In this document: in pieces, positions 512 to 28,289 of the stretch
How the letters are laid out: each line of letters begins with the position of its first letter
Numbering within the stretch: position 1 is the stretch's first letter
Source: Sediminibacterium sp.
Lineage (GTDB): Bacteria > Bacteroidota > Bacteroidia > Chitinophagales > Chitinophagaceae
Assembly (NCBI GenBank): GCA_027487895.1
Contig: JAIYCS010000042.1
Span: 1 to 34,850, forward strand
DNA length: 34,850 nt
Reading direction: 5' to 3'
Translations under genes and position numbers: made by a program
Notes under the pieces: model-generated
What the model was told of the DNA's origin: nothing
The model's database searches: none
The model's input: only the letters and a program-made list of their open reading frames with translations

Positions 512-2926
512 ATGAACAACATGTTGTTTTATGCCGTACCGGCAATGGGACTTATCGGTCTACTTTACACATTAATCAAATTTGTATGGGTTTCTAAGCA
601 AGATGCTGGTAATCCTAGAATGAAAGAAATCAGTGATTTCATTGCTGAGGGTGCTATGGCATTCTTAAAAGCAGAGTGGAAAATCCTTGCTTATTTCGTT
701 GTAATTGTTGCCTTATTACTTGGTTTTATGGCAAATACCAATGAGTCAAGCCATTGGAGTATTGCAATTTCATTCATTATTGGTGCTGTTTTCAGTGCTA
801 CAGCTGGTTACATTGGAATGAAAGTTGCTACAAAAGCAAACGTTCGTACTGCTGAAGCTGCTAAAACGAGTTTATCACGTGCCCTTAAAGTATCATTTAC
901 AGGTGGTTCTGTAATGGGACTTGGCGTATCTGGTTTAGCTGTTTTAGGTTTAGGTGGTTTATTTTTAATTATCAAACATTTCTTCTCTCCAGATGGTGAT
1001 GCAGAAGGTATGTTACGTACCATAGAAATTTTAACTGGATTCTCTTTAGGTGCTGAGTCTATCGCTTTATTTGCGCGTGTAGGTGGTGGTATTTATACCA
1101 AAGCTGCAGACGTTGGAGCAGATTTAGTAGGTAAAGTTGAAGCTGGTATTCCTGAAGATGATCCTCGTAACCCTGCAACTATTGCAGATAACGTAGGTGA
1201 CAACGTTGGTGACGTTGCAGGTATGGGTGCCGATTTATTTGGTTCTTATGTTGCAACTGTATTAGCAACAATGGTTTTAGGTCAAGAAGTAACAGGTGCT
1301 GATAAAGCGCCACTGGTAGATGCTTTTGGTGGTCTATCTCCTATTTTATTACCAATGCTAATTGCTGGTATCGGTATTATTTTATCAATCATTGGTACCT
1401 TATTTGTAAGAATTAGTGATAAAGCAGGTTTAAATACTGCAACTGTGCAAAATGCACTGAACATGGGTAACTATGGTTCTATGATTTTAACTGCAGTGGT
1501 ATGTTATTTCTTAGTAGGAAACGTATTACCTGAAACCATGTATTTACGTGGCTTAGAATTCACAAGAAACGGTGTAATTGGTGCGATTGGTGTAGGTCTT
1601 GTAGTAGGTGTGTTAATGAGTATTATTACTGAATATTACACTGCAATGGGTAAGCGTCCAGTATTAAGTATCATTAAACAATCAAGCACAGGTCATGCAA
1701 CAAATATTATTGGTGGTTTAGCAATTGGTATGGAGTCTACTTTCTTACCAATTTTAGTATTAGCTGCTGGTATCTTTGGTTCTTTCTATTGTGCAGGTTT
1801 ATACGGTGTGGCTATTGCTGCTGCAGGTATGATGGCAACAACGGGTATGCAACTTGCGATTGATGCTTTTGGTCCTATCGCAGATAATGCTGGTGGTATC
1901 GCTGAAATGAGTGAGTTACCAGCCGAAGTGCGTGAAAAAACAGATATTTTAGATGCCGTTGGTAATACAACAGCTGCAAGTGGTAAAGGTTTTGCCATTG
2001 CTTCTGCTGCATTAACTTCACTTGCATTATTTGCTGCGTTTGTGGGTGTTGCAATGCCTGATAACCAGCACATCGATATTTACAAAGCCGACGTATTAGC
2101 TGCCTTATTTGTAGGTGGTATGATTCCTTTCATCTTCTCTTCTTTAGCGATTAGAGCGGTTGGTGAAGCAGCTATGAGTATGGTGGAAGAAGTTCGTCGT
2201 CAGTTCCGTACCATTCCTGGAATTATGGAAGGTACAGGTAAGCCAGAATACGATAAGTGTGTGGCGATCTCTACTGAGGCATCTCTTAAAAAAATGATGT
2301 TACCTGGTGCTATCACTATTGTGTCTCCTTTATTAGTTGGATTCTTATTAGGCCCAGAAGCGCTTGGTGGTTTCTTAGCAGGTGCTACTGTAAGTGGTGT
2401 GTTAATGGGAATTTTCCAAAACAACGCAGGTGGTGCTTGGGATAATGCTAAAAAATCTTTTGAGAAAGGTGTTGAAATTAACGGTGAGATGTTCTACAAA
2501 AAATCTGAACCACACAAAGCATCTGTAACAGGTGATACGGTGGGTGATCCATTTAAGGATACATCAGGTCCATCAATGAATATCTTGATTAAGTTAATGT
2601 CAATTGTTTCTTTAGTAATTGCGCCAACGCTTGCTAAAATGCACCCAACATCTGGTGCAACTGTAACAAAAACACAAACAGTAGAAATGTCAATTATTAG
2701 CACCGATACTTCTGCTAATGCTATTGATACTGCAAATACAGTTACCATTTCTGCAGATTCTAAAACACTAGTGCAAGCTTTACAAGAAGATGGTTTAGCA
2801 CCAAAAGACAATGTAAAGATTGAAGTGAAAGATGGTAACATTTCTGTAAATGGTAAAGCACTTACTCCAGAACAAAATGAAAAATACAAAAGTTATTTGC
2901 ACATTAAAATGGCAGTTAAACAATAA
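512..2926 (+). CDS. hppA: Membrane-bound ion-translocating inorganic pyrophosphatase with C-terminal extension
   Basis: 804 aa. Contains [57 protein letters not shown] and [16 protein letters not shown], typical of K+-dependent membrane PPases. Confidence 0.97.
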
Positions 2927-2947
2927 CTTTTAAAGTATACGAATTTA

Positions 2948-2977
2948 AATCCCTCCTCTTTTGGAGGGATTTTTTTT
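2948..2977 (+). terminator. Rho-independent terminator after hppA
   Basis: Stem AAATCCCTCC / GGAGGGATTT with loop TCTTTT, followed by a T-tract. Confidence 0.85.
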
Positions 2978-3002
2978 GTACTATTGTAATACAAATTTTG
3001 GT

Positions 3003-3326
3003 ATGGGAAAATATATAAAGCCTACAGAAAAAGAGTTTGAGATATTATCTGTTCTATGGCAGGAAGGTTCGGCGTCTGTAAAAAAAGTACATGAAATATT
3101 GGCTTCAAAAACAGGTTACACCACTACTTTAAAGCTCATGCAAATTATGTTTGAAAAAGGTATTGTAAAAAGAGATACAACGACCAAACAGCATATTTAT
3201 AAAGCAAATTATACCAAAGACCAGGCAAAGGAATTTAAGGTAAAGCAAATTCTTTCTAACTTTTTTGACGATGATAAGGCTTTACTGATTGCTTATTTAT
3301 CGGAACCAGTTACCACAAATTCTTAG
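3003..3326 (+). CDS. BlaI/MecI/CopY-family winged-helix repressor, short C-terminus
   Basis: PTEKEFEILSVLWQEGSASVKKVHEIL...YTTTLKLMQIMFEKGIVKRD..KQHIYKA is the BlaI DNA-binding signature. Start taken as ATG 3003 because the ORF-track start at 2961 lies in the hppA terminator. Confidence 0.85.
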   Translation: MGKYIKPTEKEFEILSVLWQEGSASVKKVHEILASKTGYTTTLKLMQIMFEKGIVKRDTTTKQHIYKANYTKDQAKEFKVKQILSNFFDDDKALLIAYLSEPVTTNS

Positions 3327-4332
3327 GACACCAATCACCATATTTATTACCCAACTGAAATCCTATCAGAATTTCATGTGTTCCTCTACTCACTGTATTT
3401 AGAGAAGATGTAACAAAGTCGTAAGAGTAGCCAATATTGATATTGTTGTTTACATTAAAACCAACCATACCTGCATAACCCTCTTTAAAACGGTACGATC
3501 CTCCAAACCAAATTAAATCTTGGTACATGAGTTTTGCATTGATGTCCATACCGATAGGTAAAGGACTAATGTATCTGATAAGTGCAGATGGCAACAAACT
3601 TAAGTCTTCAGAAACTTGTAAACGATATCCTGCGCTTAAAAAAATATGCGGCACTAGCTTTCCTTGCGTGAGGTAAACTTTATTATCTGAAAATGCTACG
3701 TTTTGTGGTACAATTTGTTGAGCCGATAAACCAACAAAATAATCATTAGAATACAACCATAAGCCCGCACTAATATCTGGTTTAATGGTATTGATAAGTC
3801 CACTCGCTCCTACTGCAGGATCAATAACGGTGTTACCAAAATTTAATTTACTGGTATTTAACGTTAAATTGGTCATACCTGCTGATACGCCAAATGATAA
3901 AGTAGTTTGTGCTGCAATACCTCTGTGATATGCGTAGGTACCATAGGCAGCAAATCTATTAAGTGGTCCTGTTTGATCGTTTAAAACGGTAAAGCCAACT
4001 CCATGGTGTGGTTCTGGTGCTTGATAATTTTGCCAGTAAGCTCTTCCCCTTGGATTTTCGCCTGGCGCAGACATACTGGTAGGATTTGAAGAAGCGTATC
4101 CTTGTTTTTTAAGCGGTCCATGAAAAGTTAAATAAGTAGTAACTGGAGCATCCTGTACACCCTGCCACTGAATACGGTGCGATGTTTTTACATCCCAATA
4201 ATTTTCTATGCCAGCAAGTGCTGGATTAATTAAAAAGTTGTTTAAAATATACTGTGTATAGTATGGACGTTGTTGCGCCACACTTAACAGAGGCAGTATA
4301 AAAACAAAGCATATAACAATCAACTTTTTCAT
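3310..4332 (-). CDS. PorP/SprF-family type IX secretion system membrane protein
   Basis: Signal peptide, then QQRPYYTQYILNNFLINPALAGIENYWDVKTSHRIQWQGVQDAPVTTYLTFHGPL, a PorP/SprF hallmark. The ORF-track start at 4338 is GTG; ATG at 4332 is more likely. Confidence 0.93.
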   Translation of the reverse strand: MKKLIVICFVFILPLLSVAQQRPYYTQYILNNFLINPALAGIENYWDVKTSHRIQWQGVQDAPVTTYLTFHGPLKKQGYASSNPTSMSAPGENPRGRAYWQNYQAPEPHHGVGFTVLNDQTGPLNRFAAYGTYAYHRGIAAQTTLSFGVSAGMTNLTLNTSKLNFGNTVIDPAVGASGLINTIKPDISAGLWLYSNDYFVGLSAQQIVPQNVAFSDNKVYLTQGKLVPHIFLSAGYRLQVSEDLSLLPSALIRYISPLPIGMDINAKLMYQDLIWFGGSYRFKEGYAGMVGFNVNNNINIGYSYDFVTSSLNTVSRGTHEILIGFQLGNKYGDWCPKNLW

Positions 4333-4337
4333 GTTCA

Positions 4338-7300
4338 CTATTTTATAATGGTCACTGACCCTGTTATTATTTTTCGTCCATTTTTAGGATTGATAATATA
4401 GTAGTACGTACCAATGGGTAAAGGGTTTCCGTTGTACTGTCCATTCCAAGGTTTATCATACCCCACCGATTTAAACACGGGCTGTCCGTATCTATTGTAT
4501 ACATCAATGGTTGCGCCAGGGTAGCTTTCTAAATATTTTATTACCCAGTTGTCATTAATGCCATCCCCATTTGGAGAAAATGCGTTGGGCACTTCTGGTG
4601 CGAGTAATAGTTTAATAAATATATCATCCGTTACCATGCAACCACCTAGTCCGGTGAGTTCTAGTGTGTACGTTACATCACCAAGTGGCGTGGTGCGTGG
4701 TACGGCAGCGGTATCATTATTTAAATATAGGGCTGGCTTCCATTTGTAGGTAAGGTTATTGCCAAACACAAATGCAGGTTTAATAAGCGCTGTACCACCT
4801 TCTAGTATTTTAAAATCGGGCCCTAGATTCAGGTGCGGATACGGGAATGAAGTAACCGTTTTAGAAACGGTATCACTCACGCAGTTTTGTCCATTAAAGC
4901 CATATAGTTTGATGGTAAAAATGCCAGAGTCTCTAAAACGTTTGTTTGGATTTTGAACACTAGATGCATCGGATTGTCCTAAATCCCATACCCATTTATT
5001 GATAGGACTTGATTTACCATCCGACTGATCTGTAAAGTTTATTACATCACCCATACAAATACTATCTGGGCTAATGGTAAAGGCTGCCTTAGGTTGCGGA
5101 TAAATGGTAGTAAGCACCTGCGTTAAAGAGTCTATACAGTTGTTATTGGTGGTAACAACAAGTTTTACGTTTACGGGGCCTACGGCGCTGTATTTGTGGG
5201 TTGGATCCTTGCTTGTAGAACCTGCACTATTGTTAGGATCACCAAAGCTCCATGCGTATTTAAAACTAGCTTCCGAACCATCTACGATGCTAGAGCTATT
5301 GGTAAAGGTTCCATTACCATCCGGTAAACAAATGCTTGGTAAGCTAAAGGCAGGCTTAGGTAATGGATTTACTTTTACAAGTTGTGTATTAAGTACCGAT
5401 ACACACCCACTATCGGTGGTTACCTTTAGTGATACGGTATAGGTTTTAGTGGTATCAAATATTTTATTAAACACAGCCCCCGATGTTTTAGAAGATGTAG
5501 TTCCATCTCCAAAATCCCAGGCCCATGAAACTATGTTACTAAAATTAGCTACGGAACTATCTGTAAATACAAGGTTGTTTTTTTCGCAACTAGGAAGCCC
5601 AGCACCCCACTTAGCAGTAGGTGAAGGCCATACTGTAATATTTTGTGTAGCAGAGTCTTTACAGCCTATTACACTAGATGTGTACATGTATTGAATGGTA
5701 TAAGTGCCCACGCCCGCAGTAACAGGATTAAACACACCTGTACCGCTCACACCTGTTCCGGAATAAGCAAAACTGCCTGGTACATTGTTATCAAAACTAG
5801 CTTGTGTAATTTGACGAGCAGCTGCTTCGTTACAAATACCCGGCATGGTGGTAAAACTTACTTTAGGACTTTGGTTAACTGTAGCAGTTTTAGCAATAGA
5901 CTTACTACAACTAGCGGCGTTACCAGAAAAAGCTTTTAGGGTAATGGTATAATTTTTGGTAGCCGGGGTTTGAAAATTAGGATAACGAAAAGCGTATACC
6001 TTACCATTAAAAGGCGCTTCATCAATTGTTTTTTTAGTAAGATCGTTAGCATCCCAAAAAATCTCGAGCCTAGTAACATCACCAAAATCTACCACCGATA
6101 AATTTTTAATCCGAACCGAATCATTGCTACAAAGTTTTGTAGGCGTTAGTATCTCAAAATCAGGTGTTGGATTAGCACCATTAACGGTAAAGCTACTCGT
6201 TAACGAATCTACACAACCAAAAGAAGTGACCTTAAGAGACACACTATACACCGCCGACTTATTGTATTTTAAGGATGGATTTTTAGCTGTTAACTGCGCT
6301 GGTGTAAAAGTAGGGCCAGGTGTAATAGCAGGGCTTCCTGCATTAAAATTCCACTGATACGAAAAGTTTGTAGCACCATCTGCAGATGAAGTTGAATCTG
6401 TAAAAACAGCATTTGCATCATTTAAACAAACTTCGGGTAGCGTAAATCCAACTTTTGGAATGGAATGAATAAGTAGGGGACTCGCCAATTTAAATGTATC
6501 GCTTTTACAGCCAGAACTTGCTTCTGCAATAAGCCATGGATTTCTATTTCCCCAACTAGGGTAGGTTGTTGTTTGAGGTGTAAAACTATTTGAATTGACA
6601 ATGCCTTTTCCGTCATCTAAATTCCAGTAACTTTTTTGTAATGTTCCATTTGATATGGAAGAGGTTTCCGTAAAGTTTATATTAATATTTACGCAAGTAT
6701 TTGTTGTAGCGGTAAATGCGGCAGTTGGCTTAGGCGTTATTTCAATATTTCTTGAAAAAATATCCGATGCACAACCATTTTTAGAAGTTACTCTTAAATC
6801 AACTGCGTACGTCCCAACGGTATTATATTTAATAGGTTTAATAACAGCGCTATTGGTATCAAGGGTGTTTCCGTTTTTAAAATTCCAGTTCCATCTAGCA
6901 CCAGTAATTGCTGGGGTATTAAAATAAACAGAGTCCTGAATACAACCAGTTTGTGTAGATGTAAAATTGGCAAATACACGCTCCGAATTTAACTCAATGG
7001 TTTTTGTAGAAACTCCGCAGGCGGTTGATGCGGAGGTAATAGTGTAAATGCCATCGTTGAGGTTGGTGAAATTATTGATAACCAAATTAGCGCCAGTGCT
7101 AGAAAAGTTATTAGGCCCTGTCCATGTAAAAGTATTAGCGTCTCCCGTTACTGCATTAATAGAAGCTGTGGTATTATAGCAAATGGGTTGATTGTTGGTG
7201 AAAATTTCAGTATTTTTTGTAGCATCAATTAACTGAATAACATTGCTACTAAAATCAGAAAAATAACCATATCGAGCCGTTGAACTCGCTCCACCTTGAA

Positions 7301-8585
7301 TAACGCCTACATGAAATTTACCTTTACTATTTTCAATAAGTGCATTTGCACCACCTGTGATGACAGTAGATGGGATATTTAATCTTGCATACATCCATTC
7401 GTCATTGCTGCCCGTAACTGGGCTAAATAAGCTAGCGTCAATACCTGTGTTACTACCATTGAGTTTAAAATCATTGATGCTATTTTTTGGAGCTAATACA
7501 TTTAAAAAAAAGCTACCTGTGCTTGAAGCCCTAGTAACACTGATACTTTTAGATCCTGTGCATTTGATGGATGGGATGATGGCGCCTCCAAGTTCACAAC
7601 CAAAACCTGTTATATGAAAAATATGAACGGGTTTATCTGAATTAACAAAACAGGAGTTTTCGCTCAAAGATCCTTTGTAATAATCGCCAGCCTGAAGTGT
7701 GGCAACAGTTGCTCCATTTACTTTTATAGCGGTATTGTTTTCGATGGCAAAAACATAATAAAAATCGGGACTGTTAAAGTATCCTTTAATGACAATAAAT
7801 TCTTGTCCTGCAATATTGTCTGGTATAAGTTGGTCGCCAGCTGTATCTGAACAACCTTGTCCCGTATAAAAAAGCGAATCGTCTTTTGTAGAAATACAAA
7901 TGGGTTTATTGGATGTTACTAAAGTGCCACCTGGTCTTTCTGTTGCAGTATTATTGGCAGCAGAACAGGTATAGGTTTCTCCTTTTTGTAAAGTGATCGT
8001 AAACGGAACGCCAGCTGCACGACCAATTAAGTTGCTTTTGGGTGTAATGGTGACCTGTGTATTATTTTCTGTGGCAAGAATAATAAAATCGGTGGTATAT
8101 AATGGAAGCGGTCTTCCTATAAAGCCCATTTGAAAGGGGAGTGTAAATTTTGTGCCGAGTGCATTATTACCTTTTAATGCATAAATATCTCCATTAGAAC
8201 CATTGGCAATATCGTAGTAGCAAGATATGGGGCTATTGGATCTTATGAGTAACCCTTTATTACTAACTGTATTTGGCGTAGCATTTTCTATTTGCGTAAT
8301 TACAGTGGTGAGATTTACGGAGTTAGAGCTATTGGCCGCAATATTTATACTAATCGGGGTAAAGCCCGGATTGGCAGGTTGAGAAATGGTAATCGCAGCG
8401 GCTGAATTGGAAGTTGAAAATCTTAAAAAAATAGGCCTGTCACCATGCGCTTCTTGCAGGTCTGGAGCAGCAAACCAAAAAGTCGTATCGGTTTGGGCAC
8501 TTGTTATTTTACAAAATAAAACAAATGCCAACAAAAAGTAGAGTTGGGGGCTTCTACAGCTCATTATTGCTATTTTCTTGGTCAA
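4338..8585 (-). CDS. Large secreted multidomain adhesin-like protein: IgGFc-binding-like N-terminal region, PKD repeats, type B T9SS C-terminal sorting domain
   Basis: 1415 aa with a signal peptide. Several PKD-like units (WAWDFGDGTTSS..., YAWSFGDPNNSAG...). C-terminal VPNAFSPNGDGINDNWVIKYLESYPGATIDVYNRYGQPVFKSVGYDKPWNGQYNGNPLPIGTYYYII (gliding motility-associated C-terminal domain). Confidence 0.92.
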   Translation of the reverse strand: MTKKIAIMSCRSPQLYFLLAFVLFCKITSAQTDTTFWFAAPDLQEAHGDRPIFLRFSTSNSAAAITISQPANPGFTPISINIAANSSNSVNLTTVITQIENATPNTVSNKGLLIRSNSPISCYYDIANGSNGDIYALKGNNALGTKFTLPFQMGFIGRPLPLYTTDFIILATENNTQVTITPKSNLIGRAAGVPFTITLQKGETYTCSAANNTATERPGGTLVTSNKPICISTKDDSLFYTGQGCSDTAGDQLIPDNIAGQEFIVIKGYFNSPDFYYVFAIENNTAIKVNGATVATLQAGDYYKGSLSENSCFVNSDKPVHIFHITGFGCELGGAIIPSIKCTGSKSISVTRASSTGSFFLNVLAPKNSINDFKLNGSNTGIDASLFSPVTGSNDEWMYARLNIPSTVITGGANALIENSKGKFHVGVIQGGASSTARYGYFSDFSSNVIQLIDATKNTEIFTNNQPICYNTTASINAVTGDANTFTWTGPNNFSSTGANLVINNFTNLNDGIYTITSASTACGVSTKTIELNSERVFANFTSTQTGCIQDSVYFNTPAITGARWNWNFKNGNTLDTNSAVIKPIKYNTVGTYAVDLRVTSKNGCASDIFSRNIEITPKPTAAFTATTNTCVNININFTETSSISNGTLQKSYWNLDDGKGIVNSNSFTPQTTTYPSWGNRNPWLIAEASSGCKSDTFKLASPLLIHSIPKVGFTLPEVCLNDANAVFTDSTSSADGATNFSYQWNFNAGSPAITPGPTFTPAQLTAKNPSLKYNKSAVYSVSLKVTSFGCVDSLTSSFTVNGANPTPDFEILTPTKLCSNDSVRIKNLSVVDFGDVTRLEIFWDANDLTKKTIDEAPFNGKVYAFRYPNFQTPATKNYTITLKAFSGNAASCSKSIAKTATVNQSPKVSFTTMPGICNEAAARQITQASFDNNVPGSFAYSGTGVSGTGVFNPVTAGVGTYTIQYMYTSSVIGCKDSATQNITVWPSPTAKWGAGLPSCEKNNLVFTDSSVANFSNIVSWAWDFGDGTTSSKTSGAVFNKIFDTTKTYTVSLKVTTDSGCVSVLNTQLVKVNPLPKPAFSLPSICLPDGNGTFTNSSSIVDGSEASFKYAWSFGDPNNSAGSTSKDPTHKYSAVGPVNVKLVVTTNNNCIDSLTQVLTTIYPQPKAAFTISPDSICMGDVINFTDQSDGKSSPINKWVWDLGQSDASSVQNPNKRFRDSGIFTIKLYGFNGQNCVSDTVSKTVTSFPYPHLNLGPDFKILEGGTALIKPAFVFGNNLTYKWKPALYLNNDTAAVPRTTPLGDVTYTLELTGLGGCMVTDDIFIKLLLAPEVPNAFSPNGDGINDNWVIKYLESYPGATIDVYNRYGQPVFKSVGYDKPWNGQYNGNPLPIGTYYYIINPKNGRKIITGSVTIIK

Positions 8586-16133: not shown

Positions 16134-19001
16134 ATGGCAAAGAAATCCGCTAACGAAATAAGTTCTAGTATTCATACCGAAAGTATTGAGGTTTTTGGTG
16201 CAAGAGAACACAATCTTAAAAACATAGACATCCGTGTTCCTAAAAATAAATTGGTGGTATTTACGGGTGTAAGTGGTAGCGGAAAATCGTCCCTGGCTTT
16301 TGATACCATTTACAATGAAGGTCAGCGCAGGTATATGGAAAGTTTTGGCGCCTATGCTAGACAATTTATGGGTGATATGGAAAGGCCCGATGTAGATAAA
16401 ATTACTGGGTTATCGCCCGTGATTTCTATAGAACAAAAAACAACCAATAAAAATCCCCGATCAACGGTTGGGACTGTAACCGAAGTGTACGATTTTTTGA
16501 GGTTACTCTATGCCCGTATTGGAGAAGCGTATAGTTACAACACGGGTAAAAAAATGGTGAAGTTTACCGAAGAAGAAATTGTTGCTTCTATCACCGAAAA
16601 GTATGCCAATAAAAAAATTGTTTTACTGGCGCCATTAGTAAGAGGTAGAAAAGGACATTATAGAGAATTATTTGAAGAGGTAAGAAAAAAAGGTTTTTTA
16701 AAAGTTAGAATAGATGGCGACATTGTAGACCTTACACCAAAACTACAAGTAGACCGTTACAAAATTCATGATATTGAACTTGTAGTTGATCGTTTGCAAG
16801 TAACACCTGATGATAAAGTAAGGCTTTCACAAAGTGTACAGCAAACCTTAAAACTTGGAAAGGATCTTTTGTTTATGATGGTTCATGAGTCAAATAAAGT
16901 GGTGCAGTATGCCAAGCAGCTCATGTGTGAAGAAACGGGGCTTAGTTATGAAACACCATCTCCTAATGCATTCTCATTTAACTCCCCTTATGGAGCTTGC
17001 CCTACTTGTAAGGGACTCGGCAATGTGTTTTCTATTTCATTAGAACAAATTATTCCGGATAGATCCTTAAGTATCAAAGAGGGCGGTATTGCGCCACTTG
17101 GTGTACAGCGAGAGGCTTATTTGTTTAAACAGGTTGAAGTGCTTGCTAAAAAGCATAAAATTAGCCTGGATAAACCCATCAGTAGCTTATCGGAGCAGTC
17201 TATTAATTTACTATTATATGGCACACCTGATGGTCCATCAGAGTCTACGTTTGATATGGATGAAACGGCTATGTCTAGCCCGTATGAGGGTGTGTTTGAA
17301 GGCGTTGTTCCCATGCTTAAGCGCTGGTTTACAGGAACTGGTATTACAGAGGCGCTGCGTGAATGGGTAGAACAGTTTATGGAATTAAAACACTGCCCAA
17401 GTTGCGAAGGTGCTAGGTTAAAAAAAGAAAGTTTGTGGTTTAAGGTAGCGGATAAAAATATTGCAGAAATCAGTCATTTAAATTTAGATAAGCTGCTAAA
17501 GTGGTTTGAGGGTATTGAGAAAAAGCTTACTAAAAAAGACAATGCCATTGCAAAAGATATTTTAAAAGAGATTAGAGAGCGGGTAGGTTTTTTATTAGAT
17601 GTAGGGTTAACCTATTTGTCTTTAGATAGACCTTCTAAAACACTGAGTGGGGGCGAGTCGCAGCGTATTAGGCTGGCTACACAAATTGGATCTCAACTTC
17701 AGGGCATCACGTATATTTTGGATGAACCTTCTATTGGACTTCATCAACGCGATAATATGCAGCTCATAAAAGCGCTGCAAAATTTACGCGATATAGGTAA
17801 TAGTATTTTAGTGGTTGAGCACGATAAGGATATCATGTTAGCTGCCGATTATTTAGTTGATATTGGCCCTAAGGCTGGTAAGCATGGTGGTCAAATAGTG
17901 GCAGCAGGAACACCGCAGGAAGTACTGCTTTCTAATTCCGATACGGCGCAGTATTTAAATGGTCAAAAAAAGATTGCTGTTCCTGCTCAACGGCGAACTG
18001 GCAATGGACATACCATTGTTTTAAAAGAAGCCACTGGTAATAATTTAAAAAAGGTTTCGGTGAGTTTTCCGCTCGGTCAATTAATTGTGGTAAGTGGGGT
18101 GAGTGGAAGTGGAAAATCAACTCTAATAAACGAAACGCTATATCCGCTTTTATCTAAACATTGTTATGATAGTAAGCAACAGCCCATGCCTTTTAAATCG
18201 ATAAAAGGATTGGAGCATATCGATAAAGTGATAGAAATAGATCAATCGCCTATAGGTAGGACGCCAAGGAGTAATCCGGCCACTTATTGTGGATTTTTTA
18301 CCGAGATCAGAACCTTGTTTGCAGCCGTAGCCGAATCAAAAATAAGAGGGTACACGGCTGGGCGTTTTTCATTTAATGTAAAAGGCGGACGTTGTGAAAT
18401 TTGCGAGGGAGGTGGTATGCGCGTGATTGAAATGAATTTCTTGCCAGATGTGTATGTGCACTGTGAAAAATGTAATGGCAAACGTTACAACAGAGAAACA
18501 CTTGAAATCAGGTACAAAGGAAAATCTATTAGTGATGTTTTAGACATGACGGTAGATGAGGCTTGTGAATTTTTCCAACCTGTGCCTTTTATTTACCGAA
18601 AAATAAAAGTGTTACAAGATGTGGGTCTTGGTTATATCACATTAGGACAATCGGCGGTAACGCTTAGTGGGGGTGAAGCGCAGCGCGTTAAACTATCTAC
18701 TGAGCTGGGTAAAAAAGATACAGGTAAAACATTTTATATTTTAGATGAGCCAACTACGGGGCTTCACTTTCAGGATATTCAACATTTGATTGATGTACTT
18801 AATAAGCTAGTAGATAGAGGCAATACCGTACTCGTAATTGAACACAATTTAGATGTTATAAAAGTAGCCGATCATATTATTGACCTAGGTCCAGAGGGAG
18901 GCGATGGTGGCGGTACTATTTTGTTTGAAGGGACACCCGAGCAAATGGTGAAATGTAAAGAAAGCCATACGGCCCGTTTTGTAAAAGAAGAACTACGGTA
19001 A
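16134..19001 (+). CDS. uvrA: Excinuclease ABC subunit A
   Basis: GAREHNLKNIDIRVPKNKLVVFTGVSGSGKSSLAFDTIYNEGQRRYMES, CPTCKGLG and CEICEGGGMR zinc motifs, TLSGGESQRIRLA, TLSGGEAQRVKL. Start set to MAKKSANE at 16134. Confidence 0.98.
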   Translation: MAKKSANEISSSIHTESIEVFGAREHNLKNIDIRVPKNKLVVFTGVSGSGKSSLAFDTIYNEGQRRYMESFGAYARQFMGDMERPDVDKITGLSPVISIEQKTTNKNPRSTVGTVTEVYDFLRLLYARIGEAYSYNTGKKMVKFTEEEIVASITEKYANKKIVLLAPLVRGRKGHYRELFEEVRKKGFLKVRIDGDIVDLTPKLQVDRYKIHDIELVVDRLQVTPDDKVRLSQSVQQTLKLGKDLLFMMVHESNKVVQYAKQLMCEETGLSYETPSPNAFSFNSPYGACPTCKGLGNVFSISLEQIIPDRSLSIKEGGIAPLGVQREAYLFKQVEVLAKKHKISLDKPISSLSEQSINLLLYGTPDGPSESTFDMDETAMSSPYEGVFEGVVPMLKRWFTGTGITEALREWVEQFMELKHCPSCEGARLKKESLWFKVADKNIAEISHLNLDKLLKWFEGIEKKLTKKDNAIAKDILKEIRERVGFLLDVGLTYLSLDRPSKTLSGGESQRIRLATQIGSQLQGITYILDEPSIGLHQRDNMQLIKALQNLRDIGNSILVVEHDKDIMLAADYLVDIGPKAGKHGGQIVAAGTPQEVLLSNSDTAQYLNGQKKIAVPAQRRTGNGHTIVLKEATGNNLKKVSVSFPLGQLIVVSGVSGSGKSTLINETLYPLLSKHCYDSKQQPMPFKSIKGLEHIDKVIEIDQSPIGRTPRSNPATYCGFFTEIRTLFAAVAESKIRGYTAGRFSFNVKGGRCEICEGGGMRVIEMNFLPDVYVHCEKCNGKRYNRETLEIRYKGKSISDVLDMTVDEACEFFQPVPFIYRKIKVLQDVGLGYITLGQSAVTLSGGEAQRVKLSTELGKKDTGKTFYILDEPTTGLHFQDIQHLIDVLNKLVDRGNTVLVIEHNLDVIKVADHIIDLGPEGGDGGGTILFEGTPEQMVKCKESHTARFVKEELR

Positions 19002-25126: not shown

Positions 25127-26191
25127 TTATTTAGTTGCTAAAATATTAAATCTATCAATGGAAGCTTCAATGTCTATGGCTGTTTGTTGCAAAATATGGG
25201 AAGTAAATTGTTCCGCAAAGAAGGGTGCTAGTGAACATCCTTTGGTTCCCATGCCATTAAAGATACCTATGTTTTTATAAAAAGGGTGCATGCCTACAAA
25301 TGGCCTACGCTCAGTGTTGGCGGGCCTTATGGCAGCAATATGGTCTACCACTTTGTATGGAACCTTAAGCCACTCGTTTAGCGCTGCCATTGTTTTTTCT
25401 TTAAAACTAGGTGAAGGGTCATCATTGTAATTATCCCATTCGTAATTAGAGCCCACCCAAAAAATAGAGTCTTTCCAAGGTACAATGCTCACTGCTTTTT
25501 TATAGATGTAGCGGTTGTCTAAATCATTGATTTTTACGAGTAAAGCCTCTCCTTTATTGGGTGCAAAAGGAAGTTGTTTAAAGTATGGATTTTCTTGACC
25601 TTTGGCACCTTCGCAAAAAATAATTTGTTGAGCGGTATAGTTGTCGTAAACAATTTGATCCGTTGTAATATTTAGTTTTTTAAAATCAAAAACATCTTCT
25701 AATAGCGCGTTTTTTTCAATTAAATATTGCCGCCATGCGGTTAGTACGTTTTCTAAATGAACAAGCCAACAGGGGTCAATAACGGTGTATCCAAAAGAGG
25801 CCTCAAATGCTGCTGCAATAGTATCTTGTAAAGGGGATGTAGAGAGGTAAGTAGGGTCTTCAGCAATCCTATCTTCAAAAGCTTTTTGCATTTGTTCGCT
25901 GGCGTGAAAATTTACAATATTACACTGCTGTATAATTTTGGTATAGAGCTTGTTTTCAAGTGCCTTATAGATGCGAACTGCAGCTGGCATCACATCGTCT
26001 ATTTGCCAGGTTTTTACAATCCTTCTTCCCGTAACCGGATTGATTACACCACTAGCTATTTTACTAGCTGCCTTTTTATTGCCATCATCAATTACGAGCA
26101 CTTTTTGATGCTGCTCCATAAGTGTGCTACTTAAAACAGTGCCGCTAATGCCCTGGCCAACTATAATAATATCGTAGTGGTTTTGATGCAT
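25127..26191 (-). CDS. FAD-dependent oxidoreductase (DAO / glycine-oxidase-like)
   Basis: YDIIIVGQGISGTVLSSTLMEQHQKVLVIDDG, ASGVINPVTGRRIVKTW, IAAIRPANTERRPFVGMHP, NGMGTKGCSLAP. Confidence 0.88.
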   Translation of the reverse strand: MHQNHYDIIIVGQGISGTVLSSTLMEQHQKVLVIDDGNKKAASKIASGVINPVTGRRIVKTWQIDDVMPAAVRIYKALENKLYTKIIQQCNIVNFHASEQMQKAFEDRIAEDPTYLSTSPLQDTIAAAFEASFGYTVIDPCWLVHLENVLTAWRQYLIEKNALLEDVFDFKKLNITTDQIVYDNYTAQQIIFCEGAKGQENPYFKQLPFAPNKGEALLVKINDLDNRYIYKKAVSIVPWKDSIFWVGSNYEWDNYNDDPSPSFKEKTMAALNEWLKVPYKVVDHIAAIRPANTERRPFVGMHPFYKNIGIFNGMGTKGCSLAPFFAEQFTSHILQQTAIDIEASIDRFNILATK

Positions 26192-27342
26192 TATTCTTCG
26201 ACTCTTATTTCGTTAGCAGGGATAAAAAGCTTGATAGGACTCTGTTTTGAGGTATTTGTGATGATACGTACAAAACTGTTGCCCGTGCTAAAAACACCAG
26301 CACTGGTAAGAATATATTGGTATTGTATTTGTTGTTTTGCTAACTTATTAAATGTAATCTCTTGTGTAAAAGAGGAGGCGTATTTTTTTGCTTTACTGTT
26401 TTGCGGAAGCAGTAGGGTACTGCCACCCATGATATTTTCCTCGATAGATATTTTTTCAAAAGCGGTTGGAGTAGAAATGCCAACAGTAATATTAATGGTA
26501 TCACCTACATGCAGTGTTGCGTTTTCTGGAAGTACAACCCAGCGTCCATTTATTTTTTGTTGGATTGTTTTTTGAAGTCCAAATAACCGATTAGACTTTA
26601 TTGGTTTTTCAACCTTGTTATACTGCGAACAAACAATTTTAGTTTCCTGTTTATTAACTACTCCAGAACTACTTGTTTGAAGCGAATAATTCCCCATATC
26701 ATTACTAATAAAATCACCAAGTAATGAGGTGTCAAACTGAGTACGTCCTGTTATAGTAAATTGTTTGTTGCCCATTTGTAATTTCCAATAATCAAGTGGG
26801 GTAGAAGCATTAAATGAAACGCGCAAATTATGATGGGTACTGCTTTCTGGGGCATTTAAGAGCGCAGTAAAAACCCCTTTTATAATGGTGTCTTTACTGG
26901 TTTTTAAAACCACCGAATCTGAAACAAGTAATCTGTTGGTGTATACAAAAAAGCTATCGGAGAAGTTACTAGTGGCTATCATCTCTTTTTTATTTTCTAA
27001 TACGGTTGCTTCTAGTTGGTAGCGTAGTAATTGCATATAACCAAAGGCAGCTTGAATGGGAAATTGAATGCGCGTTTCAGCGCCTGCATCAATACTATAA
27101 AACTGTGATGGAAAAACATTTTGAAACCAACCATCTACGGGGCTGTTATTTGTGGGGTTAATGAGTGACAAGTGAACCTGACCAGTAACTGGTTTATTGG
27201 ATTTATTGAGAATCGTTGCAGAGATAAATGACTTGTCACCTTCTCTTAAAAAATTTGCATGACGCCCACTAATCAACACTTGACCATTAGCAATATGAAT
27301 GCTACCAAGGGCAATCATCATTAAAAAAAGAAGGGGCTTCAT
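26191..27342 (-). CDS. Secreted protein resembling a truncated bacterial alpha-2-macroglobulin (MG-like segments only)
   Basis: Signal peptide MKPLLFLMMIALGSIHIANGQ. VDGWFQNVFPSQFYSIDAGAETRIQFPIQAAFGYMQLLRYQLEA...FSDSFFVYTNRLLVSD and INGRWVVLPENATLHVGDTINITVGI resemble separate segments of Bacteroidota A2M-family proteins. The ORF-track start at 27387 lies in the sucD terminator. Confidence 0.6.
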   Translation of the reverse strand: MKPLLFLMMIALGSIHIANGQVLISGRHANFLREGDKSFISATILNKSNKPVTGQVHLSLINPTNNSPVDGWFQNVFPSQFYSIDAGAETRIQFPIQAAFGYMQLLRYQLEATVLENKKEMIATSNFSDSFFVYTNRLLVSDSVVLKTSKDTIIKGVFTALLNAPESSTHHNLRVSFNASTPLDYWKLQMGNKQFTITGRTQFDTSLLGDFISNDMGNYSLQTSSSGVVNKQETKIVCSQYNKVEKPIKSNRLFGLQKTIQQKINGRWVVLPENATLHVGDTINITVGISTPTAFEKISIEENIMGGSTLLLPQNSKAKKYASSFTQEITFNKLAKQQIQYQYILTSAGVFSTGNSFVRIITNTSKQSPIKLFIPANEIRVEE

Positions 27343-27368: not shown

Positions 27369-27402
27369 AAAAAAAAGCCTGCAACAAATGTTACAGGCTT
27401 TC
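27369..27402 (-). terminator. Rho-independent terminator after sucD
   Basis: Minus strand AAGCCTGTAACA-TT-TGTTGCAGGCTT followed by TTTTTT; one G-U pair in the stem. Confidence 0.85.
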
Positions 27403-27416
27403 ATTAAAAAGTCTAC

Positions 27417-28289
27417 TTATTTATTAATAACTTCTGCCATTGTTTTTCCAATATCAGCAGGGCTAGCTACTACATGAATTCCACAAGCTGCCATAATTTT
27501 CATTTTAGCTGCTGCTGTGTCATCTGCACCGCCAACAATCGCACCCGCGTGACCCATTCTTCTGCCCGGAGGCGCTGTTTGACCAGCAATAAATCCTACA
27601 ACAGGTTTTGTTTTATTGGCTTTAATCCACTCCGCTGCTTCTGCCTCCATGCTACCACCAATTTCACCAATCATAATAATACCATCGGTTTCTGGATCGT
27701 TCATTAAAAGTGCTACAGCGTCTTTAGTTGGCGTACCAATAATTGGATCACCACCAATACCAATTGCTGTAGAAATACCCATACCTGCTTTTACCACTTG
27801 GTCTGCAGCTTCGTAGGTTAGTGTACCGCTCTTTGAAACAATACCAATACGTCCTGGCTTGAAAATAAAACCTGGCATGATGCCTACTTTTGCCTCTCCG
27901 GCAGTAATAACGCCAGGGCAGTTAGGTCCAATAAGTCGGGTTGTTTTTCCGAGTAAATAGTTTTTAACTTTTACCATGTCTTGTACAGGAATACCTTCTG
28001 TGATACAAACAACTAGTTCTATACCAGCATCGGTCGCTTCCATAATCGCATCAGCTGCAAATGCAGGCGGTACAAAAATGATACTCACATTAGCACCTGT
28101 AGAAGCTACAGCGTTTGCTACCGTATTAAATACTGGCTTGTCTAAATGCGTGCTGCCTCCTTTTCCTGGAGTTACACCACCCACCACATTGGTGCCATAT
28201 TCAATCATTTGTGTAGCGTGGAACGTACCTTCTGTTCCGGTAAATCCCTGAACAATTACTTTAGAATTCTTATTAACTAATACTGACAT
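27417..28289 (-). CDS. sucD: Succinate-CoA ligase (ADP-forming) subunit alpha
   Basis: [71 protein letters not shown]. Confidence 0.98.

Follow-up and report, generated by a model that had tools for sequence, protein, structure and literature searches.

A short alpha-2-macroglobulin-family gene without the TED in the sucD slot of Sediminibacterium

Introduction

Is an exported protein of 383 amino acids that recalls two separate parts of a bacterial alpha-2-macroglobulin (A2M) a remnant in decay, or has it been retained for a role of its own? A2M and the complement proteins are known as large, thioester-dependent protease traps or tags. The question is raised by a gene found in a 34,850-nucleotide stretch of Sediminibacterium sp. 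DNA (contig JAIYCS010000042.1), which is referred to as the window hereafter. From the sequence alone, the initial annotation described a secreted protein in which a segment just before the TED and a C-terminal MG segment are joined by a "Ser/Thr-rich linker", and proposed that it is a retained small protein that could act as a regulator, decoy or scaffold together with a full-length A2M. We examined the gene (mini-A2M hereafter), its locus and its relatives.

Results

The mini-A2M gene and its orthologues

The features at and around the gene are compiled in Table 1. The ORF comprises 383 codons and a stop codon that overlaps the start codon of the downstream gene (TAATG); the size, signal peptide, clean frame and overlap given in the initial annotation were all found. 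Not one of 5000 base-shuffled versions remained open, and the frame is thus not a chance one. The same gene was found in seven further assemblies, from Sediminibacterium and other Bacteroidota. Six sequences were aligned: they are of the same size, show 65–80% identity, and, like every mini-A2M orthologue, carry the hydrophobic leader. Most of the genomes compared are MAGs. In eight genomes from independent projects, the mini gene has identical ends and neighbours, and it lies inside contigs except in contig-edge cases.

Table 1 Features of the window at and around the mini-A2M gene
Feature	Position	Strand	Basis or remark
Small membrane protein, 136 aa	24712..25122	minus	Conserved neighbour
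FAD-dependent oxidoreductase (DAO family)	25127..26191	minus	Overlaps the mini-A2M stop codon; downstream neighbour kept in all slot states
Mini-A2M gene, 383 aa (signal peptide, MG9, CUB without TED, CTMG/MG10)	26191..27342	minus	ORF list, orthologue alignments, hhalign
CTMG/bMG10 domain, residues 253–383	26194..26586	minus	Alignments, Pfam, model of the domain alone
CUB C-terminal half, residues 187–224	26671..26784	minus	Alignment with full-length A2M
Junction, residues 181–186	26785..26802	minus	Alignments; site of the missing ~350-residue TED between the CUB halves
CUB N-terminal half, residues 138–180	26803..26931	minus	Alignment with full-length A2M
MG9 domain, residues 22–137	26932..27279	minus	Homologous to full-length A2M residues ~1326–1440; most constrained (dN/dS 0.125)
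DGWFQNVFPSQF segment in MG9, residues 70–81	27100..27135	minus	Sequence alignments of A2M-slot forms
Signal peptide, residues 1–20, MKPLLFLMMIALGSIHIANG-Q	27283..27342	minus	Sequence; cleavage predicted before Gln21
Terminator-like hairpin 3′ of sucD	27373..27402	minus	Sets sucD apart from the mini-A2M transcription unit
sucD gene	27417..28289	minus	Synteny; conserved upstream neighbour

Domain architecture

The nomenclature of bacterial A2Ms distinguishes MG9, a CUB with the TED as an insert, and CTMG, and TED, CUB, CTMG and MG9 together form a single arm that closes on the protease (PMC4498604). Residues 28–180 of mini-A2M match the segment that immediately precedes the TED in full-length A2M with 32–40% identity (hhalign 99.5%, E 8e-23). 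Residues ~181–383 match the last ~200 residues of full-length A2M up to the final one (blastp E 1e-7); the hhalign score was 47, and eight column-shuffled controls reached no more than 20.8. Both segments had therefore been assigned correctly in the initial annotation, as had the absence of the TED and thioester together with about 1000–1600 further residues. The supposed linker, on the other hand, appears from the alignments to be two CUB halves that would meet, and close, over the point of TED excision. MG9, CUB and CTMG, which are Type I A2M domains, stand in mini-A2M in the same order; none of MG1–MG8, the bait region, the TED or CxEQ was found in the alignment to full-length A2M, and the signal peptide runs straight into MG9. 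Since the four domains are grouped as one arm (PMC4498604), mini-A2M corresponds to the "TED arm" minus the TED. The MG9 label is supported by ECAM, because its residues after the bait region align to the same profile segment as the mini MG9.

Two segments of the full-length CTMG, DRDMxYxHxKDxRxA..EP and CMYAPEF, were absent from all the minis in the alignment; they may correspond to the RDDR and EXMY motifs, which contact the TED in A2M structures (PMC4498604). In Pfam, bMG10 was the only A2M model that scored: it was detected in all seven mini members, with 21.2 bits for the window protein, under the cut-off of 26.2. A phmmer search of mini-A2M against PDB sequences gave nothing useful. The AlphaFold check suggested in the initial annotation succeeded only in part. 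The model of the whole protein, from a 7-row alignment, was poor (pLDDT 53, and 22–36 over about residues 131–250, the CUB region), and its Foldseek matches were uninformative transglutaminases, while the CTMG modelled alone was confident (pLDDT 83). The top PDB match of the latter was complement C3c, and the lower ones included C4, C5, cobra venom factor and the alpha-1-macroglobulin receptor-binding domain among other beta-sandwiches; these matches are no more specific than expected for a generic beta-sandwich.

The sucD slot and its neighbours

The gene upstream of mini-A2M is taken by us to encode a succinyl-CoA ligase alpha subunit of the SucD type. The terminator-like hairpin that follows it makes the slot gene the first of its unit. 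The order sucD, slot gene, DAO oxidoreductase and small membrane protein is common to the full-length, mini and micro genes (the micro form is described below), and in every slot state the slot gene and DAO abut to within a few bases at most loci. In one full-length clade, three to four additional genes lie between A2M and DAO: L041 (G035), L138 (G127) and L219 (G137). A plasmid search gave no match. Elsewhere in the window (3310–8585), a 342-aa outer-membrane-like protein adjoins a 1415-aa repeat protein; they presumably resemble a PorP/SprF-type protein paired with a gliding/T9SS substrate.

Slot states across relatives

The slot was surveyed in 147 genomes of the genus by a micro-profile search, the host setting of the series being freshwater Sediminibacterium-type bacteria. 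About 120 of them carry one A2M-family gene between sucD and the oxidoreductase: full-length genes (or fragments) were counted in 64, mini genes in 8 and micro genes in 51, nearly always one per genome. The micro form consists of MG9 only (131–153 aa; one longer ORF lies in a gapped contig). It matches the MG9 of full-length A2M by profile (E 1.6e-16), and no significant Pfam A2M match was obtained for the micro forms. In at least eight further genomes of the genus the slot is empty: sucD directly abuts DAO with no gene between, and the slot gene is thus dispensable there. Median genome sizes are 3.4 Mb for the full-length carriers vs about 2.1–2.3 Mb for the micro and mini carriers, a descriptive comparison that ignores kinship.

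A search of mini and micro genomes with a full-length query found no second A2M-family gene, and no A2M-family locus besides mini-A2M was found in the window genome. As for the relatives, the same short architecture was thus confirmed in eight genomes, while the separate full-length A2M expected alongside it was not seen in this search.

Other genera of the family carry in this slot genes of 675–774 aa, referred to as the TED-arm genes hereafter, which consist of a signal peptide, MG9, CUB, TED and CTMG and have neither the bait region nor MG1–MG8. These forms begin at full-length residue ~1326: the one in G313 shows 55% identity to full-length A2M from residue 1326 on, directly after the signal peptide. 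CSEQ is present at locus L232 (G313:C3), and CxEQ is lacking at L234 (G393) and L235 (G309); G313 thus keeps the thioester motif despite the absence of the bait region. MG9-only genes of 130–138 aa also occupy the slot in G420, G379 and G307. Both the TED-arm and the micro genes of other genera show the same gene order as far as the fetched flanks extend.

Among the full-length A2Ms of the genus, CxEQ was lost in 26 of the 40 sampled and kept in 14, vs all seven of those from other families. The losses occurred by substitution, with about five changes on the UvrA tree. At three loci, L214 (G098), L222 (G114) and L218 (G079), the full-length gene is broken into two or three ORFs, reflecting either early decay or assembly errors. 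PBP1c (TIGR02073) exceeded the cut-off in none of 36 genus genomes vs all six genomes of other families, with a partial match in G036; because it is lacking throughout the genus irrespective of slot content, it does not tell the slot states apart. G036 is the sole genus genome with a PBP1c-like match, and this match shares a contig (G036:C158, about 2552–5621) with a second A2M, which is not the gene of the sucD slot; the arrangement resembles the classical A2M-PBP1c pair.

Selective constraint and the MG9 segment

The dN/dS analysis across orthologues that had been proposed was carried out by NG86 and gave 0.25 for the mini gene; hence the gene is retained and not decaying, as the initial annotation had held. 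By region, the values are 0.125 for MG9, 0.23 for CUB, 0.32 for CTMG and 0.47 for the signal-peptide region. This gradient agrees with which domain survives longest. Over all mini pairs dN/dS is 0.2–0.3, and the median for micro pairs is 0.235. Among the sequences examined, the mini, micro and TED-arm forms and the full-length forms of the genus share the segment DGWFxNxFPxQ(Y/F), and it did not appear in A2Ms from other families. The core of the segment (DGWF, N, FP, QYFTT) is invariant or nearly so in 16 micro proteins. Most of 59 reduced genes have no internal stops, and in the few flagged cases the match spans the ORF end.

Origin of the reduced forms

Single and multiple origins of the mini and micro forms were compared with UvrA, AspS, HppA, their concatenation and the flanking genes. 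The mini forms group with the full-length carriers in the UvrA tree (95/93 support) and with the micro carriers in the HppA tree, and the flanking genes group the micro forms of other genera with the TED-arm forms. AU tests rejected neither a single origin nor several (p 0.27–0.85). The HppA (512–2926) and UvrA (16134–18998) of the window itself place the window clade in conflicting positions, by either transfer or attraction. Complete loss of the slot gene has occurred several times within the micro clade.

Discussion

Both homology and synteny with full-length A2M were found, which assigns mini-A2M to the A2M superfamily by descent; this descent, with the architecture described above, is as good as certain. 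Its closest counterpart is the full-length A2M of the genus (~2000 aa), which occupies the same sucD-DAO slot, is 32–40% identical in the MG9 region and shares DGWFxNxFPxQ, but is five times longer and has the other MG domains and the TED, with CxEQ in 14 of the 40 sampled. The micro and TED-arm forms share with mini-A2M the locus, the segment and the absence of MG1–MG8; they differ in that the micro forms have also lost CUB and CTMG, whereas the TED-arm forms keep the TED, with CSEQ in G313. In comparison with Type I A2Ms (E. coli YfhM/ECAM and Salmonella SaA2M), mini-A2M descends from a CxEQ-bearing architecture and has the same MG9, CUB, CTMG order and, by prediction, export. It differs in lacking MG1–MG8, the bait region, the TED and CxEQ (domain set according to PMC4498604), and its genome has no PBP1c gene over the cut-off. 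The Type II A2M of Pseudomonas, MagD, has a full chain with a bait region, still traps protease non-covalently and is encoded in a six-gene operon (PMC5764988). Mini-A2M, like many full-length A2Ms of the genus, resembles it in the absence of the CxEQ thioester; however, it is not a full chain, has neither bait nor TED, and, judged from the locus, has sucD, the DAO oxidoreductase and the small membrane protein as neighbours instead of the mag operon. Mini-A2M thus lacks defining features of both types and is a derived member by descent. The literature searched, which was of limited coverage, made no mention of bacterial A2Ms that are TED-excised or consist of MG9 only.

We consider that mini-A2M is probably an A2M reduced in place that no longer acts as a trap and is maintained by a residual role, perhaps binding through MG9. 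A bacterial A2M of ~2000 aa would have been reduced at its own locus to a signal peptide and MG9, followed by a CUB that closes where the TED was cut out and by CTMG. Because the bait region, the thioester and the TED-facing CTMG segments are gone, mini-A2M could hardly trap a protease covalently, and the loss of protease trapping is very likely. The exported product may act as a beta-sandwich binding module with the conserved segment DGWFxNxFPxQ(Y/F) of MG9 as its main contact; a binding function centred on MG9 is a tentative proposal. This segment would already have served a partner in the full-length A2M and would be the last part to disappear in shrinking genomes. Points against the account are the relaxed constraint on CTMG and its sub-threshold Pfam score, the generic level of its Foldseek matches, the poor whole-protein model over the putative TED-less CUB, and the genomes with an empty slot, which do without the gene.

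A slow decay, in which the mini and micro forms are non-functional stages of A2M loss whose deletion is unfinished in shrinking genomes, is an unlikely alternative. The reduced forms do occur in small genomes (2.1 Mb for micro and 2.2 Mb for mini, vs 3.4 Mb for full length), complete loss has recurred in the micro clade, and dN/dS is relatively high for CTMG. However, the low dN/dS of the mini and micro pairs and above all of MG9, the invariant core of the segment in the micro proteins and the scarcity of internal stops speak against it, as does a similar size maintained over a wide clade. The near-zero spacing to DAO and the hairpin that places the slot gene at the head of its unit might instead indicate a leader cistron, an ORF retained mainly for translational coupling to the overlapping oxidoreductase while its protein hardly matters. 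This is improbable: the constraint acts on amino acids and differs by domain, a signal peptide would be needless, and DAO persists in the genomes with an empty slot.

The pairing with a co-resident full-length A2M, put forward in the initial annotation on domains that the two do share, was not borne out and is now very improbable, in view of the absence of any other A2M-family gene from the mini and micro genomes searched and the replacement of the full-length gene by the short one at the same locus. Equally hard to maintain is an unrelated Ig-like exported protein resembling A2M by chance or convergence. Pfam scores under the cut-off and Foldseek matches to many other beta-sandwiches would suit it; the profile-profile match (E 8e-23), the 32–40% identity to the syntenic gene over 130–200 residues and the colinearity of the second half with full-length A2M contradict it. 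As for an assembly artefact or a piece of a longer gene, a concern where most genomes are MAGs, its probability is negligible: the misassembly considered in the initial annotation was not found, the ends and neighbours being the same in the eight independently obtained genomes apart from contig-edge cases.

Returning to the reduced A2M kept for a residual role, it is possible that the MG9 of this lineage has a second, non-trapping role, namely binding a conserved exported partner via DGWFxNxFPxQ. Selection for this role alone might have shaped repeated and partly convergent reductions: from full length to the TED arm, the TED arm without TED, MG9 alone, and loss. Because the micro forms obtain no significant Pfam A2M match, dozens of A2M descendants probably go under the label of hypothetical proteins. 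A single locus in one bacterial family thus presents a graded natural series in which a trap is dismantled and one domain stays under purifying selection. The series suggests that MG9 has a role so far unrecognised, and it offers natural minimal constructs for testing that role.
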